The notes below the pieces were generated by a model. It saw only the letters and a list, made by a program, of their open reading frames with translations. It did no database searches and was not told the origin of the DNA. The position numbers and the translations under genes are program-made. Positions 2,705 to 10,315 of a stretch of 64,000 bases of DNA are shown piece after piece. The DNA comes from Desulfonispora thiosulfatigenes DSM 11270 (GTDB lineage: Bacteria; Bacillota; Peptococcia; Peptococcales; Desulfonisporaceae). The DNA lies in contig NZ_FWWT01000007.1 of NCBI RefSeq assembly GCF_900176035.1, positions 1 to 64,000 on the forward strand, given 5' to 3'. Every line of letters begins with the position of its first letter. Position 1 is the first letter of the stretch.

Positions 2705-2734
2705 AAAAGGCTTACTCAACCGAGTAAACCTTTT
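2705..2734 (-). terminator. Terminator overlapping the stop codon of the MazG-like gene
   Basis: Thirteen-base arms (AAAAGGxTTACTC) with a 4-base loop, then TTTTTATA on the minus strand. The upstream arm contains the last codons of the MazG-like gene, so gene end and terminator share sequence. It closes the long minus-strand run that starts at glcD. Confidence 0.8.
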
Positions 2735-3038
2735 CTAATACTAATCCTTCTTTAAAACTGCCTCTAGTTAATACCTTTGTTTGTCTTATCTTTTCTATAT
2801 CATCCATATTTAACTTATGTACTTGATTTGCTAAAGCATAAATAACCTCTAATATATCGGCTAATTCCTCAGGGTCAAAAGATTCAAGATATTCATTTAC
2901 TTCTTCTTTAAGTTTGTCCACTAACATTTTACGGAAAAAATCATCATCAATTATTTTTGATATTTCTACCTTTTTACCGTCATTTTCAATTATTTGAGGA
3001 ATTTTATCTCGGACTAGCTTTTTATATTCAATGATCAT
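2712..3038 (-). CDS. MazG-like nucleotide pyrophosphohydrolase (phosphoribosyl-ATP pyrophosphohydrolase-like)
   Basis: A 108-residue all-alpha protein of the MazG/HisE-like superfamily. It begins MIIEYKKLVRDKIPQI, typical of the short phosphoribosyl-ATP-pyrophosphohydrolase-like subgroup. It carries the metal-binding motif EExxE (E45, E46, E49) followed by ExxD (E58, D61). It probably hydrolyses a nucleoside triphosphate to the monophosphate and pyrophosphate as a house-cleaning enzyme; no other his genes are nearby, so a histidine role is unlikely. The longer frame (start at 3077) begins inside a hairpin, whereas GGGGAGG sits well spaced before the ATG at 3038. Last gene of the minus-strand run that includes the restriction-like pair. 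Confidence 0.8.
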   Translation of the reverse strand: MIIEYKKLVRDKIPQIIENDGKKVEISKIIDDDFFRKMLVDKLKEEVNEYLESFDPEELADILEVIYALANQVHKLNMDDIEKIRQTKVLTRGSFKEGLVLEKVYSVE

Positions 3039-3075
3039 TTTCCTACCTCCCCTGTGAATTAGCTTTGATTTAAAC

Positions 3076-3110
3076 AACTAGATTATTAAATATAATTTAA
3101 TAATCTAGTT
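3076..3110 (-). terminator. Perfect 15-bp inverted repeat, possible terminator
   Basis: Arms AACTAGATTATTAAA and complement around a 5-base loop, just downstream of the starch-binding-module gene. The tail on the minus strand is only weakly T-rich (GTTTAAATC), so it may be a weak terminator or a 3'-end stabiliser ahead of the MazG-like gene. Confidence 0.5.
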
Positions 3111-3116
3111 GAGTTT

Positions 3117-3422
3117 CTACTGCAAATCCAGACTATAATTTGCTCCATTATTATTGTCCCAATTATCAGCACTATCCCTAAAACATAGATTTAATTTGCT
3201 TCCATTTGGAACAGTTATATCAGAATAAAATCTGTTATTTTTTCTTTTCATTTTATAATCTTTTACATTTTCCCAACTATCTGAATAATTTGTAACTCCA
3301 CAATGAACATAAATTTCATCAGCTCCTGATTGAACTAGTTCACCTTCATAAGTTAATTTCACAACTTTATTTGCCTTAACTTCCCTCGGGGTTACAAATA
3401 TACCACTATGAAAAAGATCCAT
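3117..3422 (-). CDS. Stand-alone carbohydrate-binding module (CBM25/CBM53-like starch-binding fold)
   Basis: A 101-residue protein consisting of a single beta-sandwich domain. The sequence runs VKLTYEGELVQSGADEIYVHCG, then a tryptophan (SWENV), and closes with LNLCFRDSADNWDNNNG (W88). This is the characteristic order of starch-binding modules of the CBM25/53 type found in starch synthases and amylases. No catalytic domain or signal peptide is attached, so it would act in the cytoplasm, perhaps as a glycogen-binding or partner protein. A GGAGG site lies 8 bases upstream of the ATG. It sits between the DUF2357 nuclease-like gene and a MazG-like gene, neither of which explains it. Confidence 0.72.
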   Translation of the reverse strand: MDLFHSGIFVTPREVKANKVVKLTYEGELVQSGADEIYVHCGVTNYSDSWENVKDYKMKRKNNRFYSDITVPNGSKLNLCFRDSADNWDNNNGANYSLDLQ

Positions 3423-3504: not shown

Positions 3505-5904
3505 TCAAGTTCTAATAATATCTCTAATTATTTTTCCTGGTGTCCTTGAAAATTCTTGTAGTGAAATTTTTTTAATTTGATCCTTTTTATAGATAAGTAC
3601 TATTTCTTTATCGTCTAGGTGAACTATTTTATCATCTATTTTAAAACTAGCAATATTTGAATTATCCTTTTCTAATGAAACTTGCACCTTTTGTGACCAA
3701 CGCTTTAATTCCATCCATAATCTGAATTCCAGCTCATCTTTTATGCAAAGTTCTTCAGAAAATTCACAATTCTTAAGTAAGTAATAGGTTGTATACATAA
3801 TTGTTCTAAGACTATTTCCTTTAATCAAAATAGGATTATGTAAAACTTCCCACTTTTCAACTTCAAACTTAACATATAAATTATCTGCTTTTTTTATTTG
3901 CTGGGGCAATTCTTTAATTTCTTTGCGCGGTAAAACTATTATATTTTTAATTTTACCATAATATTTAATACCTGCGCTGTCTTTAAACAAGTTTTTTGAT
4001 TGATAAATAGCGATATATTCTAAGTTGTTTTTATACATATTAATATTTTTTAACCTTGTATGATAAAAATTATTATTAAGATTAATTGTTAATTGTTCTC
4101 CATTACTCAAAGTTCCTAGCAATACATTTCTTTGTTTATAATATTCAGGTTTAAGATATTCAGTTGTACCTATTTGTTCAATACTTCGTTCAAAAGATGA
4201 ATAGGATGATTCCTTAATAAGTTCATCTAAAAATTCTTCCATTAAATTTGTTGCAGTAGGTAAAAAGGGAAAACCACCTATATTTACCGACTTAATACTT
4301 TTATAAAATTTATGTTCTTTATATTCAGTTTCATTTTTATATGGAAATAGAACATATGCACCAAAAATATCCCTCTTAATCTGATTTTCAGTATTTTTAC
4401 TAGTATGAATAATTGCATCTCGATATCTATGCATAGCATTAATATCTTCTTCCATAGGACCAGTAGCTCCATTTAATTTTTTCTCCCCTGAGATAGAATA
4501 TTTAAAATCAACCTTATACTTTGCATCAAATATGTAATTATATTTAACATCACTATTTGCTTTTTTTAGAGAAAAAACATTATCAGGTTTCTGTCCTACA
4601 GTTACTGATTCCATCCCCAGATTATAAGAAACAGTAAAGACTTCTCCGTTTTGGGGATTTAAATATTTAGCAGAAGTATTCTTTCCTTTTTTTAAGGTTA
4701 CAAAAACACCATTATTATTTATTTTTATTAAGTCAGTTTGTAAAAGCTGATATTTTTTCTTTAAGATGCTATTTATTTTTATAAAGCACCAATATTCATA
4801 TAACACAGATAAATCTTTGATAGATAAATTAAACATATCACCTTGTAGTCTCAGACCTTTTTTAAGCATTAAATAATATTTATAAATATCTTTATATCCT
4901 GGTGCCATCTTGATAACTAAGGATGATGAATCTTTTGGAGCAAACTTGCTTACTTTTTTCCAAGTATCATTATACATAATTCGATTTAGGCTTTTAATAA
5001 TATTATCAATACTCTTTACAATTAATTCATCCTGTTCTCTGTTTAAACTTAAATATTTTATTCTAAATTCTTTCAATCTACCCGCAATCTCTAATACCAT
5101 ATATTTTGTAAATTGGTTTTCATACGTATCTACAGTATTTTCTTTTCTTATTTCTAAAGCTTTAATTGCCACATAATGGCCACCTTTTCTCATTACATTT
5201 TGCGGATTTTTCTCTAGCCATCTAGTTGTTTTAGAACTATATTTCTTCGTTTTATGAAAAGGAAGTACTTGCTCATTTTTAATTAATTTATGGTGAGGAT
5301 TACTATTAATAATTTTTAACGCTTGCATAAAATTATTAATAATCAACTGTAAAATGCTATAAAATTCAGTTAGACTACTTGAATTTTTTTCTATTAAGCT
5401 TGTTTGTAGATATGTTCTTTTTAAAAAATCAAAAGATAAATTATAGATTTCTTCATTTACATCATGCAAGATTTGCTGGTAATCATCTTTATAATCTATT
5501 TTAGTAGGAAAAACTTCTAGTAATAATACTAAATTTCGTTTTTTATTTAGCATTATAACTAGTTCAGTCAATCCTATATCACCTTGAAAATTAATAATGC
5601 CTGAAAGCACTCTTTTGCTTTTTGAAGTAAAATTTATTTGATTACGTAACAATATATTTTCATGGTAGAATTCAATTTCATCCTCAATAAATTTCTTTTC
5701 AATTATTAACTCATAATTCGTATATTCAAAAAGAATAGGTCCTTCACTTATTTTAAAATTTTCCATAAACTCATCTTGACAAAAAACTTGAAATTTATTT
5801 TCAGTATTTCCATAATCTTTATATTTACCTGTCAACGTTAAATATAAAGATTCAGTTTCTATGCTTACTAAAATATGATTACCAGAATGTAGTGAATCCA
5901 TCAC
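3505..5904 (-). CDS. DUF2357 / McrC-like restriction nuclease subunit with PD-(D/E)XK motif
   Basis: A 799-residue protein with an N-terminal beta-rich part, a central helical DUF2357-type region with the sequence SSKTTRWLEKNPQ, and a nuclease core. A PD-(D/E)XK-like active site is visible as P440-D441 followed by D460-A-K462 in YIFDAKYK. It overlaps the upstream McrB-like ATPase by 26 bases, as expected for partners. In McrBC the motor subunit drives a McrC nuclease to cut modified DNA; by analogy this is the cleaving subunit of a type IV-like restriction system. The recognised modification is unknown. The start is GTG at 5904 or ATG at 5901, both behind the same AGGAGG. The lysine-rich C-terminal third (beyond about residue 560) has no family I recognise. 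Confidence 0.75.
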   Translation of the reverse strand: MMDSLHSGNHILVSIETESLYLTLTGKYKDYGNTENKFQVFCQDEFMENFKISEGPILFEYTNYELIIEKKFIEDEIEFYHENILLRNQINFTSKSKRVLSGIINFQGDIGLTELVIMLNKKRNLVLLLEVFPTKIDYKDDYQQILHDVNEEIYNLSFDFLKRTYLQTSLIEKNSSSLTEFYSILQLIINNFMQALKIINSNPHHKLIKNEQVLPFHKTKKYSSKTTRWLEKNPQNVMRKGGHYVAIKALEIRKENTVDTYENQFTKYMVLEIAGRLKEFRIKYLSLNREQDELIVKSIDNIIKSLNRIMYNDTWKKVSKFAPKDSSSLVIKMAPGYKDIYKYYLMLKKGLRLQGDMFNLSIKDLSVLYEYWCFIKINSILKKKYQLLQTDLIKINNNGVFVTLKKGKNTSAKYLNPQNGEVFTVSYNLGMESVTVGQKPDNVFSLKKANSDVKYNYIFDAKYKVDFKYSISGEKKLNGATGPMEEDINAMHRYRDAIIHTSKNTENQIKRDIFGAYVLFPYKNETEYKEHKFYKSIKSVNIGGFPFLPTATNLMEEFLDELIKESSYSSFERSIEQIGTTEYLKPEYYKQRNVLLGTLSNGEQLTINLNNNFYHTRLKNINMYKNNLEYIAIYQSKNLFKDSAGIKYYGKIKNIIVLPRKEIKELPQQIKKADNLYVKFEVEKWEVLHNPILIKGNSLRTIMYTTYYLLKNCEFSEELCIKDELEFRLWMELKRWSQKVQVSLEKDNSNIASFKIDDKIVHLDDKEIVLIYKKDQIKKISLQEFSRTPGKIIRDIIRT

Positions 5905-7510
5905 TTTCTAACCTCCTAGTCATATCACATATCTTGTAAGCAGATTTTTTAAATAATACTACTTCAGTGTTTTTTGCTAAATAAGCGTACATTTTGTCAG
6001 CTATTTCGTTAGAATATAGGTCATATTCTAAGGTTTGATCTGTAACATAAGAAAAAAGATTAACTAGAATCTTTTTTATCTCGATATCATTACCTTGGAT
6101 TTTAGGAAGAATCTTTTGTAAAATACTAAAATCAAGAGCTTTGTTAAATTTAAAGATATTTTCTTTAACAGAGTAAATAACATAAAAAACTATTTCATCT
6201 CTAACCCTATATCCAAACTGCATATTTCTTTCAGCTAAGATTTTGTTTAAATTAATTAAATGATCAATCGCCTTTTCAGCTATGTTTCTTTCATCTAGAC
6301 AATCTTTTAATATTAAATACTCAGACTTTAAACTCTTGTTTGTAATTATTATTTCTTCCTTTTCTTCATCTTCTGCTACATCGTCAAAATTAAATTCTAA
6401 ATCTACACATGAAAACTCAATAGTATTAGCACGATCTAGAACCTTTTTACTGAAAGAATATGTGGTTTCGTCCATATTAACTGTGCCTATTATGTATAAA
6501 TTTTCTGGTAGATATAATTCTTTATATTTATCTTTTGCTTCGCTATCTTCGCCAAACACGTCTTCTGATAAAAGCTGGTTAGTTACTATGGTATCTTTTT
6601 GTTCCCTGGTCTCCATAACTGATAACATATCACTAAAGTAATATTCCACTCTGGCCAAATTCATTTCATCTAAACATAAAAAATAAGGATAATTAAGATT
6701 TTCAGTAGCTTCTTTGATAACTTTAATTACCGGTCCAGGATTATACTTTCCATCGATATTTTTATAGCCTAACAAATCAGAGGGATCAGACCAATCGGGT
6801 CTAACAGGGATTAAACTAAATCTCCTATTACTTGTATTTGCCCCAATTGCTTCAGCAAAAAGCTTAACTAATTTACTTTTTCCAGTTCCTGATAAACCTG
6901 CTAATAAAACAAACGGTTTTGTCTTTAAGGATAAATAAAAATTAGCAATATCCTCATAAGTATAAAAATAACCTTTTCCTTTGATATAAGCATGGATATT
7001 ACTAATTATTGCTTCAGTTTCATCCTGTGTTTCATCTACTTCTGCCTCAACATCTATATTTTCCTTTTCTAACATTTCAAAATACCTCTTTAATTTATCC
7101 TGTAAGATATCTTTTATTTTTTGTAAATCTTCTTGATTATTTATTTCTTGCCATAACTTGCTAGGAAATTGTACAAATTCGCTTTCTCCAGTTATTGTTT
7201 TTTCTATATATCCTTTGCTAGATATAACACTATAGGCATTATCATTAATCATACTTTTTAATTTGTTAATGTCTAAACTTTGATTATTTTTACTTAAAAC
7301 TGAACTTTTATCCTCTAAAATAAATCCATTCTCTTTTCTTTCCAGAAAAAAATTTTGTATCCACTTTAAGACATCGCTGTAGTTTGCTCTGCCATGTTCA
7401 TCAAGGTTATACAACATCCCAAGTAGTAACAAAAGTTTATATGACTTCTGATACTTATTTCTTTCTAATACACCAATTGGTCCGATATATTCTAAAAATT
7501 CTTTTTTCAT
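5879..7510 (-). CDS. McrB-like AAA+ ATPase/GTPase, restriction motor subunit
   Basis: A 543-residue protein. The AAA+ module starts near residue 200 with Walker A GLSGTGKSK. Walker B is FLCLDEMNLAR (about 277-287), and the sensor segment is GTVNMDETTYSFSKKVLDRA (about 340-360), which is the hallmark wording of the McrB family. Residues 1-120 look like a small helical or winged-helix domain (YKLLLLLGMLYN), and 125-175 are charged and probably coiled coil; the N-terminal part may read DNA. It is translationally coupled to the GNAT gene before it (ATGA overlap) and to the DUF2357 nuclease after it. Expected role: nucleotide-driven translocation or remodelling in an McrBC-like defence complex. 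Confidence 0.82.
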   Translation of the reverse strand: MKKEFLEYIGPIGVLERNKYQKSYKLLLLLGMLYNLDEHGRANYSDVLKWIQNFFLERKENGFILEDKSSVLSKNNQSLDINKLKSMINDNAYSVISSKGYIEKTITGESEFVQFPSKLWQEINNQEDLQKIKDILQDKLKRYFEMLEKENIDVEAEVDETQDETEAIISNIHAYIKGKGYFYTYEDIANFYLSLKTKPFVLLAGLSGTGKSKLVKLFAEAIGANTSNRRFSLIPVRPDWSDPSDLLGYKNIDGKYNPGPVIKVIKEATENLNYPYFLCLDEMNLARVEYYFSDMLSVMETREQKDTIVTNQLLSEDVFGEDSEAKDKYKELYLPENLYIIGTVNMDETTYSFSKKVLDRANTIEFSCVDLEFNFDDVAEDEEKEEIIITNKSLKSEYLILKDCLDERNIAEKAIDHLINLNKILAERNMQFGYRVRDEIVFYVIYSVKENIFKFNKALDFSILQKILPKIQGNDIEIKKILVNLFSYVTDQTLEYDLYSNEIADKMYAYLAKNTEVVLFKKSAYKICDMTRRLESDGFTTFW

Positions 7511-8016
7511 TTCAGCCCATGCACCTGTTCATATAAAGTATCCCTAACATCTACAAATTCATCTTTTACTAAGTTATTTGGATAGGACATTATCATTAAA
7601 GGTACTGGTTTTTTACTTTCATCATAGGCAGGTTGGACATAGTCATAACTATTTAATTTAAATCCTAATCTTTGATAAAAGTTAATTCTTCTCTTTGCTA
7701 TTTCTGTGTCGGGAGGTTCTACTTCGAGAACAATTTTAGTTGGATATTCTTTTATTAGCCCTTGGTACATTTTTTCACCATGACCCTTACCCCTTACTTT
7801 CTGATGGGTAGCAGCATGTTCTACATATAAAAAATCGCCTAATTCCCAAACTGTACAAAATCCAATAGTTTCGTTTTTTGCTTTATATGGTAATATCTTA
7901 TATTTCGGATTATCTAATAACCTTTTTTGTGCTTGTAAATTTCTTTTTTCATCTTCAGGAAATGAGTCATTGTATATTTCCCAGAATACTTCCCAGGTTT
8001 CTTGTAAAGAATCCAT
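7507..8016 (-). CDS. GNAT family N-acetyltransferase
   Basis: A 169-residue protein with the GNAT acetyl-CoA pyrophosphate loop KVRGKGHGEKM (R/Q-x-x-G-x-G pattern) at about residues 92-102. It is preceded by the strand DFLYVEHAAT and followed by the C-terminal motif RRINFYQRLGFK. All core elements are present; the substrate cannot be inferred. A GAGGTAAGG site lies before the ATG. The gene follows threonine aldolase with a 9-base gap and overlaps the McrB-like gene by four bases (ATGA), so the acetyltransferase and restriction pair are probably co-translated. Whether it belongs to the defence module or only shares the operon is unclear. Confidence 0.85.
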   Translation of the reverse strand: MDSLQETWEVFWEIYNDSFPEDEKRNLQAQKRLLDNPKYKILPYKAKNETIGFCTVWELGDFLYVEHAATHQKVRGKGHGEKMYQGLIKEYPTKIVLEVEPPDTEIAKRRINFYQRLGFKLNSYDYVQPAYDESKKPVPLMIMSYPNNLVKDEFVDVRDTLYEQVHGLK

Positions 8017-8025
8017 AACCTTACC

Positions 8026-9057
8026 TCAATTCATGATATTATTAAATACTTCTAGGGTATAATTGATATCTTCTGTAGTGATATCTAAATGGGTCACAAG
8101 TCTAATTCTTTTATCAGTAATACTTCCTGTTAATACTCCATTTTTCTCTAATTCCGTTACTAATTCGTCTGCCCCTAGTTCAGGCTTAGTGATATCTATC
8201 ATTACTATATTAGTATGAAGTGTTTCTAAATCTATCTTTAATCCGTTTAATTTATTTATACCTTCTGCTAATATTTTAGCATTATTATGGTCTTCAGCTA
8301 ATCTTTTACGATTATTTTCTAAGGCATAAATTCCAGCAGCTGCTAAAATTCCTGCTTGCCTCATTCCTCCACCTAACATTTTCCGGTATCTTTTAGCACC
8401 AGTTATAAATTCCCTACTACCTACTAACATACTTCCTACCGGTGCTCCGAGTCCTTTAGAAAGACAAAACATCATAGAATCGACATCTTTAACGATTTCC
8501 TGTGGCGAAGTGTTTAAATATGCTGCAGCATTAAAAATTCTAGCTCCATCTAAATGAACTTTAAGACCATTTTCCGTAGCGATTTGAGCTAGTTCTGAAA
8601 TTTCATTTGCCGTAGAAACTAATCCACCAGCCATATTATGTGTATTTTCTAAGCACAGTAAAGTTTGCTTAGGGGCATGAATATCAGGTGCTTTAATAGC
8701 TCTTTTTAATTGTTCTGGCATAATTTTTGCCTTTTCTCCAGCAATAAGTGTAGGTAGCACTCCCGCTAAAAGAGCAATACCACCCACTTCATAATTGTAG
8801 ATATGAGATCTTTCTTCGAGGATAATTTCTTCTCCTCTCTCAGTGTGCACCAGTACTGCTATTTGATTTGCCATGGTTCCTGTAGGTACAAATAATGCTG
8901 CTTCTTTTCCCATAAGCTCAGCTGACATTTCTTCTAATTTATTAATTGTTGGGTCTTCTCCATAGACATCATCGCCTACTTCTGCTTCCATAATTGTCTG
9001 GCGCATTTCTAGTGATGGTTTCGTTACTGTATCGCTTCTTAAATCAACAATTTTCAT
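8026..9057 (-). CDS. ltaE: Low-specificity L-threonine aldolase
   Basis: A 343-residue PLP enzyme that cleaves threonine or allo-threonine to glycine and acetaldehyde. It starts VDLRSDTVTKPS, has the family motif GDDVYGEDPT, and keeps the PLP lysine in CLSKGLGAPVGS. HLDGARIFNAA supplies the cofactor-binding aspartate and a conserved arginine. Length is normal. An AAGGAG site precedes the ATG. It lies 13 bases after glcF in the same orientation. Glycine made here could feed the glycine cleavage operon at the other end of the window, and the acetaldehyde could enter central metabolism; that link is inference. Confidence 0.93.
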   Translation of the reverse strand: MKIVDLRSDTVTKPSLEMRQTIMEAEVGDDVYGEDPTINKLEEMSAELMGKEAALFVPTGTMANQIAVLVHTERGEEIILEERSHIYNYEVGGIALLAGVLPTLIAGEKAKIMPEQLKRAIKAPDIHAPKQTLLCLENTHNMAGGLVSTANEISELAQIATENGLKVHLDGARIFNAAAYLNTSPQEIVKDVDSMMFCLSKGLGAPVGSMLVGSREFITGAKRYRKMLGGGMRQAGILAAAGIYALENNRKRLAEDHNNAKILAEGINKLNGLKIDLETLHTNIVMIDITKPELGADELVTELEKNGVLTGSITDKRIRLVTHLDITTEDINYTLEVFNNIMN

Positions 9058-9070
9058 CTTTAGATTCTCC

Positions 9071-10315
9071 TTATCTATTATCGTAAGCTAAAGCTAATAA
9101 CTCTATGGGATGTTTTACTTCTCCAGGGATTTCATTTAACTTTAAGCCTGATTGTAATTGCATAGTACATGCTGGGCAAGATGTAGCTATAATAGATGCT
9201 CCTGTCTTTTGAAAATTATCTATTTTTCGATTAATAATGTTTTTTGAGATTACCGGATTGAAAATTCCATAAGATCCTGCTCCTCCACAACAAGTATCAG
9301 CTTCATCCATTTCTACAAATTCTATTCCAGGAATATTTTCTAATATTTTACGAGGTGCGTTTTTCACTTTTAAATATCTAACGCCATGGCATGGGTCATG
9401 ATAGGTCACCCTTCTAGTTACCTTTCCCATTTCCTTTTTATACCCATATTTTAATAAGAAAGTGCTGATATCAATAATTTTGTCATAAATTTTATTAGCC
9501 ATTATTTTATAAGTTTCATCATCTTTAAATAATTCTTTATAATCTCTAAGCATTGATCCACAGGTTTGACAATCTATGATAATGACTTCTGTATCTAAAC
9601 AGCTAAGTATTTCTACATTTTCCTGTGCTAATTTTATATATTCATCTTGGTTTCCAGCACTAAAATGAGGGGCACCACAACACTTTGTCTCTGGTACTAA
9701 TACCTCATAACCATTTTCTTGTAATACTTTGATTGTTGAGATAGCAACATTAGGAAAGAAATTATTTACCGAGCATCCTAAAAAATACCCAACTTTTTCT
9801 TTAGGGTCAAGTGATCTATATAATAGTTTTTTTAATCTTGAACGCACATTTTCTTTAGGTATATCGGGGAGTTTGCTATCAAGATTTTTAAATCTATCGC
9901 TTAAAGTTAAAACGCTTTGAGTGCCACTAGTTTGATAAAAACGCATTAATTTAATAACTCTATCTGTTTTCTTATTATCTGAAAATACATTTTTTAGTAA
10001 TACCCTTTTAGCTAGGGATAGCCCTTTTATTTTGGTAGTTTCATTTCTCATTTGAGCAATTAATTCAGTAGTATTTACTCCTGCCGGGCATTTTTCTACG
10101 CAAGCACCACATAATAAGCATTCATTTATATACTTTTCTAATTCTGGTTCTTCTTTAAGATTAAGTACACCTTCTAAAGTCATACGAATTAATTTGTTTC
10201 GGCCACGAGCTAGTTGAAATTCATTTCCTGATGTTTTATAGGTAGGGCATACTTCTTGGCAAAAGCCACAACGATTACATTTCATCACCATTTCTAATAA
10301 TTCATCTTTATTCAT
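9071..10315 (-). CDS. glcF: Glycolate/2-hydroxyacid dehydrogenase iron-sulfur subunit (GlcF-like)
   Basis: A 414-residue ferredoxin-like electron-transfer subunit. Two [4Fe-4S] motifs are visible near the N-terminus, CNRCGFCQEVCP (about residues 14-25) and CLLCGACVEKCP (about 64-75). Two cysteine-rich CCG domains follow, with TKCCGAPH and DTCCGGAGSYG. This is the layout of GlcF and related heterodisulfide-reductase-like subunits. It overlaps glcE by four bases and is followed by ltaE. With GlcD and GlcE it should form a membrane-associated or soluble flavin/iron-sulfur dehydrogenase for glycolate, D-lactate or a similar 2-hydroxyacid; the substrate is not decided by sequence. Confidence 0.88.
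   Translation of the reverse strand: MNKDELLEMVMKCNRCGFCQEVCPTYKTSGNEFQLARGRNKLIRMTLEGVLNLKEEPELEKYINECLLCGACVEKCPAGVNTTELIAQMRNETTKIKGLSLAKRVLLKNVFSDNKKTDRVIKLMRFYQTSGTQSVLTLSDRFKNLDSKLPDIPKENVRSRLKKLLYRSLDPKEKVGYFLGCSVNNFFPNVAISTIKVLQENGYEVLVPETKCCGAPHFSAGNQDEYIKLAQENVEILSCLDTEVIIIDCQTCGSMLRDYKELFKDDETYKIMANKIYDKIIDISTFLLKYGYKKEMGKVTRRVTYHDPCHGVRYLKVKNAPRKILENIPGIEFVEMDEADTCCGGAGSYGIFNPVISKNIINRKIDNFQKTGASIIATSCPACTMQLQSGLKLNEIPGEVKHPIELLALAYDNR

Follow-up and report, generated by a model that had tools for sequence, protein, structure and literature searches.

Gene content of the locus

The window, a stretch of 64,000 nucleotides from Desulfonispora thiosulfatigenes DSM 11270, carries overlapping genes for an McrB-type motor and an McrC-type nuclease on its minus strand, beside metabolic genes and several small genes of other kinds. 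The features at the locus are as follows.

2712–3077, minus strand: MazG-like small protein of the all-alpha NTP-pyrophosphatase type, likely start ATG at 3038; possible accessory gene
3117–3422, minus strand: protein of 101 aa with a CBM53-type starch-binding module (CBM53, 8e-11); judged not to be a component
3505–5904, minus strand: McrC-type nuclease, 799 aa, PF09823 (DUF2357) and PF04411 (PDDEXK_7)
4519–4587, minus strand: region coding for the nuclease core P440-D441 ... D460-A461-K462, invariant in homologues
5879–7510, minus strand: McrB-type AAA+ motor (putative GTPase), 543 aa, AAA_5, Walker motifs, GTVNMDE
7079–7459, minus strand: SYK module (McrB residues 18–144), a homologue of the module that ends PLD-nuclease/DEAD helicases
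7507–8016, minus strand: GNAT acetyltransferase, 169 aa, PF00583 (1e-10); judged not to be a component
8026–9057: threonine-aldolase family protein (domain match)
9071–10315: GlcF-like protein (domain match)

The tight packing described in the sequence-only reading was borne out. McrB and McrC overlap by 26 bases (5879–5904) when McrC is counted from the GTG at 5904, and by 23 bases when the alternative ATG at 5901 is taken as its start. GNAT is coupled to McrB through an ATGA overlap at 7510–7507, because of which it may be co-transcribed with the pair, and family matches place the threonine aldolase and GlcF-like genes beside them. The G+C content of the pair region is about 25–29%, compared with 30–35% in the adjoining glc and aldolase genes. 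Between the MazG-like gene and McrC lie the CBM gene and, between the CBM and MazG-like genes, a perfect inverted repeat of 17 bp with a loop of 3 (3075–3111); no clear T-run follows this hairpin on the minus strand, which makes it a doubtful terminator.

That reading had also suggested that the GNAT and CBM genes might belong to the system. No homologue of the GNAT gene was found in 31 loci carrying the pair or in 84 further loci (the two sets overlap in a few, for a total of about 110), and its 11 orthologues in 398 other genomes, at 33–50% identity, adjoin neither the pair nor the threonine aldolase. A GNAT gene never found with the pair is what the sequence-only reading had itself named as a refutation. 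The CBM gene is private to the window locus, with no relative near any other pair in the loci compared. Both genes were consequently rejected as components and are best seen as chance neighbours.

Distribution and neighbourhood of related pairs

The McrC homologue is sparsely distributed. Of the 399 Bacillota genomes sampled, 46 have it, but within the class to which the window belongs it was found in only 1 of 46 genomes. A search with an alignment as query returned 490 relatives in GTDB genomes, and a single-sequence scan of genome contigs gave no match. The nearest relative, at 53% identity, comes from an Alkaliphilus metagenome-assembled genome (L064). McrB adjoins McrC in 29 of 31 loci. 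Of 97 non-redundant loci, 90 contain both families, and the arrangement as adjacent co-directional genes with McrB upstream is conserved in relatives. Genes near these relatives encode PglZ and BrxA (BREX), Mrr-type nucleases, GmrSD, DpnII, Schlafen-type helicases and, in a few cases, methyltransferases. Together, the patchy distribution and the defence-type neighbours point to a mobile defence module.

The cluster seen most often among the neighbours, close to the pair in 10 of the 97 loci, is an Mrr-type nuclease that bears a zinc ribbon of the topoisomerase type (L046, L050, L108, L110, L113, L115, L122, L127 and two more; domains were checked in L046 and L113). A PHROGs search gave generic ATPase and acetyltransferase matches only, and distant relatives occur in a single phage record and on four contigs of viral origin. 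A full McrB-McrC pair lies on a viral-class IMG/VR contig (L144, 4056–8499), its McrC at 34% identity.

The nuclease subunit

DUF2357 is the N-terminal domain of McrC (PMC11090510). In the window protein, a beta-rich N-terminal region is followed by DUF2357 (PF09823, residues 101–343, E 7e-62), the PD-(D/E)XK domain (PF04411, residues 367–523, E 6e-44) and a conserved C-terminal region (residues 578–799). If the proposed PD-(D/E)XK core were a chance resemblance, its residues should vary among homologues. P440, D441, D460, A461 and K462 were invariant in 32 Bacillota homologues, as was M491-H-R-Y-R-D (491–496), and both motifs were likewise unchanged in another set of 42, which partly overlaps the first. 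This invariance indicates that the core motif is not due to chance, and a homologue without the PD-(D/E)XK residues, which would have spoken against the assignment, was found in neither set. The PD, DAK and MHXYRD motifs, together with a link between DUF524 and the McrB GTPase, had been published in 2007 (PMC1913061).

Structural comparison agreed with this assignment. In Foldseek, the AlphaFold model of McrC (pLDDT 78) matched both YdjA of BsuMI and the McrC of E. coli, with the YdjA-YdiS model 9a5m as top match; a weak match to YTHDC1 (E 0.6) was set aside. PDB profile searches with McrC and with its C-terminal region gave no usable match at the sequence level. The C-terminal part of the protein had been put forward as a place where specificity might reside. 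Its roughly 220 residues (578–799) are kept in relatives, which identifies the region as a part of the core and not as a variable reader.

The motor subunit and the SYK module

McrB has an AAA_5 match (E 4e-7) with a Walker A motif GLSGTGKS, a Walker B motif LDE and the NxD-type signature GTVNMDE at residues 342–348 (N345-M-D347). Its AlphaFold model (pLDDT 91) matches E. coli McrB (6hz4/6ut6) and BsuMI YdiS in Foldseek. The GTVNMD signature is present in 105 of the 110 McrBs collected. NxD proteins form a large branch of McrB GTPases, which includes the CoCoNuTs and in which no GTPase had yet been characterised (census in PMC11090510). The window pair is an McrBC pair on this branch.

Upstream of the motor, the protein consists of a module occupying residues ~1–144 and a linker of ~25 residues, with the GTPase beginning at ~169. 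An iterated profile built from residues 1–150 detected this module of about 125 residues, which we named SYK after its motif, in many other proteins. Among 110 McrBs, 40 carry SYK with ADAM, 24 ADAM only, 10 SYK with another domain, 34 other domains and 2 SYK only. The ADAM/MrcB_N reader is thus present in 64 of 110 related McrBs (14 of 30 had a Pfam match to it in a first set of relatives, whose N-terminal regions are 164 to 583 residues long), and in most relatives the SYK module precedes a base-reader domain. The two McrBs with SYK only, among the 110, are the window protein and that of L064, in which SYK is joined directly to the GTPase; they align from end to end at 49% identity. No modified-base reader was detected in the window McrB by PF12102 or any other reader match. 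Three further McrBs (L037, L038 and L044) have N-terminal regions that are short and resemble neither ADAM nor SYK; these may be further reader domains.

The SYK module is also the C-terminus of nine helicases, 7 of them related to one another over their full length, and the SYK helicases scanned one by one carry a PLD-like domain (8 PLDc_2 members). The notion that the N-terminal region of McrB is a private specificity domain therefore does not hold, since the module is common to many McrBs and PLD-helicases. A PDB profile search found no solved relative of the module. Its recurrence suggests that SYK may serve NTP-driven nucleases in general as a module that contacts DNA or a partner. We infer that any specificity of the window pair must sit in the SYK module or in the conserved McrC C-terminus.

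Association with nucleotide hydrolases

The EExxE...ExxD motif is the metal site of all-alpha NTP pyrophosphatases, and the two halves are separated by 12–28 residues in classical MazG proteins. The small MazG-like protein (2712–3077) keeps this motif with a spacing shorter than the classical one; among 26 sequences, E45, E46, E49 and D61 are invariant and E58 is kept in at least 90%. No Pfam or NCBIfam match supported the name MazG for it, and a PDB profile search gave no usable match.

The sequence-only reading had raised a possible link between this gene and the pair, and here the comparison of loci lent it support. The family occurs in 58 of 399 genomes at about one copy each. Of the 97 non-redundant loci, 9 have it next to the pair (8 of 96 without the window), against ~0.07 expected from the family density when about 3 Mb per genome is assumed. 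The gene is directly upstream of McrB in L040, L078 and L095 (gaps of 0–77 nt), divergently upstream in L049 and L064, and downstream of McrC in L062, L101, L112 and the window. A second type of hydrolase, a MutT-like NUDIX protein (PF14815/PF00293), is encoded 3' of McrC and co-directionally in six clusters (L053, L112, L116, L121/L134/L139, L129 and L140); it is the immediate neighbour in five of these and overlaps McrC or lies within 10 nt in four. L112 holds both NUDIX and MazG-like genes.

A competing account is that the MazG-like gene is a mere passenger in defence islands, functionally unconnected to the pair, and we give this nearly an even chance. The gene is missing from about 90% of pair loci, and so is not essential. 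Its orientation varies, with two divergent cases, and other defence genes cluster around the pair as well; part of the enrichment is a defence-island effect. If clustering in islands were the whole explanation, then immediate neighbours of the pair should be no richer in such genes than positions slightly farther away. NTP-PPase or NUDIX genes (the MazG-like family, NUDIX and one distant NTP-PPase) made up 13 of 172 immediate neighbours and 2 of 217 at rank 3–4 (p 7e-4), and the MazG-like family alone 7 of 172 and 1 of 217 (p 0.015), both p values being for neighbour families that had been noticed before they were counted. The excess at immediate adjacency indicates that part of the MazG-like link goes beyond defence-island clustering. 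Also against the passenger account, the gene is co-directional and within 0–77 nt in L078, L040, L062 and L095, and the family adjoins SYK-carrying helicases in 9 of 20 other MazG-like loci, which are the nearest relatives chosen by MazG-like similarity alone and not a random draw. The MazG-like gene may thus be a credible partner of the pair, as an optional helper, as judged from gene order.

In the nine helicase loci (L190, L194, L195, L198, L199, L201, L203, L204 and L205) the two genes are mostly co-directional and close, and the helicases are of the PLD-nuclease/DEAD type (SauUSI-like layout) or other helicases. Counted by eye, the MazG-like gene accompanied about 7 of 53 McrBs with SYK and 3 of 50 without, which is no clear difference. 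Paenibacillus loci L103, L104, L111 and L130 carry a MazG-like family of another kind (PF12643, as seen in L103), whose gene adjoins a Schlafen group 3-type helicase gene near the McrBC pair.

Some published observations touch on such an association. Mycobacterial MazG degrades 5-OH-dCTP (PMC3855555), which shows that modified pyrimidine dNTPs can be substrates for pyrophosphohydrolases of this superfamily. MutT homologues adjoin SauUSI homologues in Streptococcus (PMC7641849), and MazG has been listed as a predicted but unvalidated defence domain (PMC13092281). Among the papers searched, judged by title and abstract, none was found that connects MazG and McrBC through neighbouring genes.

Mode of action and alternative explanations

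Homology to McrBC does not fix specificity, since the related architectures PcaI, BsuMI and LlaJI cut unmodified DNA. The pair could accordingly be the restriction half of a methylation-protected restriction-modification system that cuts unmodified DNA, a reading we consider unlikely. Its structural neighbours YdiS and YdjA belong to such a system, PcaI shares the layout of AAA+ plus DUF2357 and has extensions on its nuclease subunit (PMC8989522), and a methyltransferase lies near the pair in a few relatives. Restriction of unmodified DNA would require a protecting enzyme. A cognate methyltransferase was looked for with five Pfam families (PF00145, PF01555, PF02384, PF02086 and PF07669) and not found: there was none beside the pair in the window, and in the 99.6% complete genome only PrmC passed the cut-off, with an RlmL-like rRNA methylase below it. 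Modification dependence is therefore the likelier mode. The proposal that the two genes form a type IV-like McrBC pair agrees with the domains and the intact nuclease core, and stand-alone, modification-dependent restriction of the type IV-like kind appears to be the most likely mode on the sequence evidence.

We regard it as quite unlikely that the pair is a relic, or was co-opted after loss of its reader like the McrB relative PcdA in S. aureus (PMC10602043). The missing reader, the restriction of the SYK-only architecture to the window and L064 among 110 McrBs, and the co-directional metabolic operon are what such a history would leave behind. Against it, both reading frames are intact, the catalytic residues are kept, and the occurrence of the same architecture in L064 at 49–53% identity implies long maintenance.

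RNA targeting or host killing by abortive infection, as proposed for the CoCoNuTs that share the NxD branch with the 105 GTVNMD-bearing McrBs (PMC11090510), is very unlikely given the intact McrC nuclease, the lack of a long coiled coil (the longest helix ahead of the McrB motor in the AlphaFold model has 30 residues) and the lack of a HEPN family among the neighbour families listed.

Discussion

On balance we favour the reading in which the locus encodes a two-subunit endonuclease of the McrBC kind, likely a stand-alone type IV-like restriction system, with the MazG-like nucleotide hydrolase as a possible, optional helper. McrB (5879–7510) would form an AAA+ ring that hydrolyses GTP, and McrC (3505–5904) would dock onto it through DUF2357, stimulate the ring and cut DNA with its PD-(D/E)XK domain. 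The pair would restrict incoming modified DNA on its own. Target sensing is placed in the SYK module at the McrB N-terminus, in the conserved McrC C-terminal region, or in both, since McrB lacks an ADAM or EVE reader of the usual sort; for want of the reader of the prototype we class the proteins as an McrBC-type pair and do not claim a proven restriction enzyme for modified bases. Hydrolysis of abnormal (d)NTPs is the probable activity of the MazG-like protein. In one version, this activity would keep modified nucleotides, for example those salvaged from degraded phage DNA, out of host DNA and so spare the cell from its own nuclease; in another, it would starve phages of modified dNTPs. A broader scheme, which we hold to be tentative and rather doubtful, is that NxD McrBC pairs and PLD-helicases, as modification-dependent restriction enzymes of unrelated construction, share SYK as a sensing or coupling module and recruit MazG-like or NUDIX hydrolases that remove modified dNTPs. 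Such removal would prevent the nuclease from treating freshly replicated host DNA as foreign, or would deny a phage the means to make modified DNA.

At its core the finding is a further member of a known McrBC kind, the link between McrBC, DUF2357 and DUF524 having been published. What is new is a reader-less McrB in which SYK is joined to the GTPase, the occurrence of SYK in PLD-helicases as well, the association with the MazG-like gene and the exclusion of the GNAT gene. The window McrB is among the smallest NxD-type proteins found here, consisting of the motor and one module of ~125 residues, and offers a small system in which to ask what an McrBC motor recognises when it has neither an ADAM nor an EVE reader. 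Should the hydrolases be functional partners, their association with the pair would suggest a way for cells that carry modification-dependent nucleases to escape cleavage of their own genome once modified nucleotides reach the pool.

Comparison with known systems

The window pair resembles E. coli McrBC (EcoKMcrBC) in its AAA+ motor with an N/D signature, its DUF2357-PD-(D/E)XK partner, its operon order and the best structural matches of its McrB (6hz4/6ut6). It differs in having NxD where E. coli McrB has NxxD, in lacking the ADAM (DUF3578) m5C reader and in the ~275 residues that follow the nuclease domain of McrC. With NxD-branch systems including CoCoNuTs (Bell et al. 2024, PMC11090510) it shares NxD followed by E and an enlarged McrC. 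Identity with CoCoNuTs was rejected because the pair has neither a long coiled coil nor a HEPN partner among the neighbour families listed and has kept its nuclease.

BsuMI YdiS/YdjA and PcaI (PMC8989522) likewise consist of an AAA+ subunit and a DUF2357 nuclease, but act with cognate methyltransferases, of which the five Pfam families found none here. The PADLOC candidate PDC-M26 is similar in its subunit A, whose profile (PDC-M26A) matches McrB at 1e-59, whereas the subunit B profile matches weakly (4e-4, in the nuclease region). SauUSI is a type IV enzyme with a PLD plus DEAD layout (PMC3874153); DUF3427, its proposed recognition domain, was not detected in 3 PLD-helicases scanned one by one. 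The MazG-linked PLD plus DEAD helicases of this type carry the SYK module at their C-terminus, and while the motor and nuclease of the window pair are unrelated to theirs, the SYK module alone is common to both.
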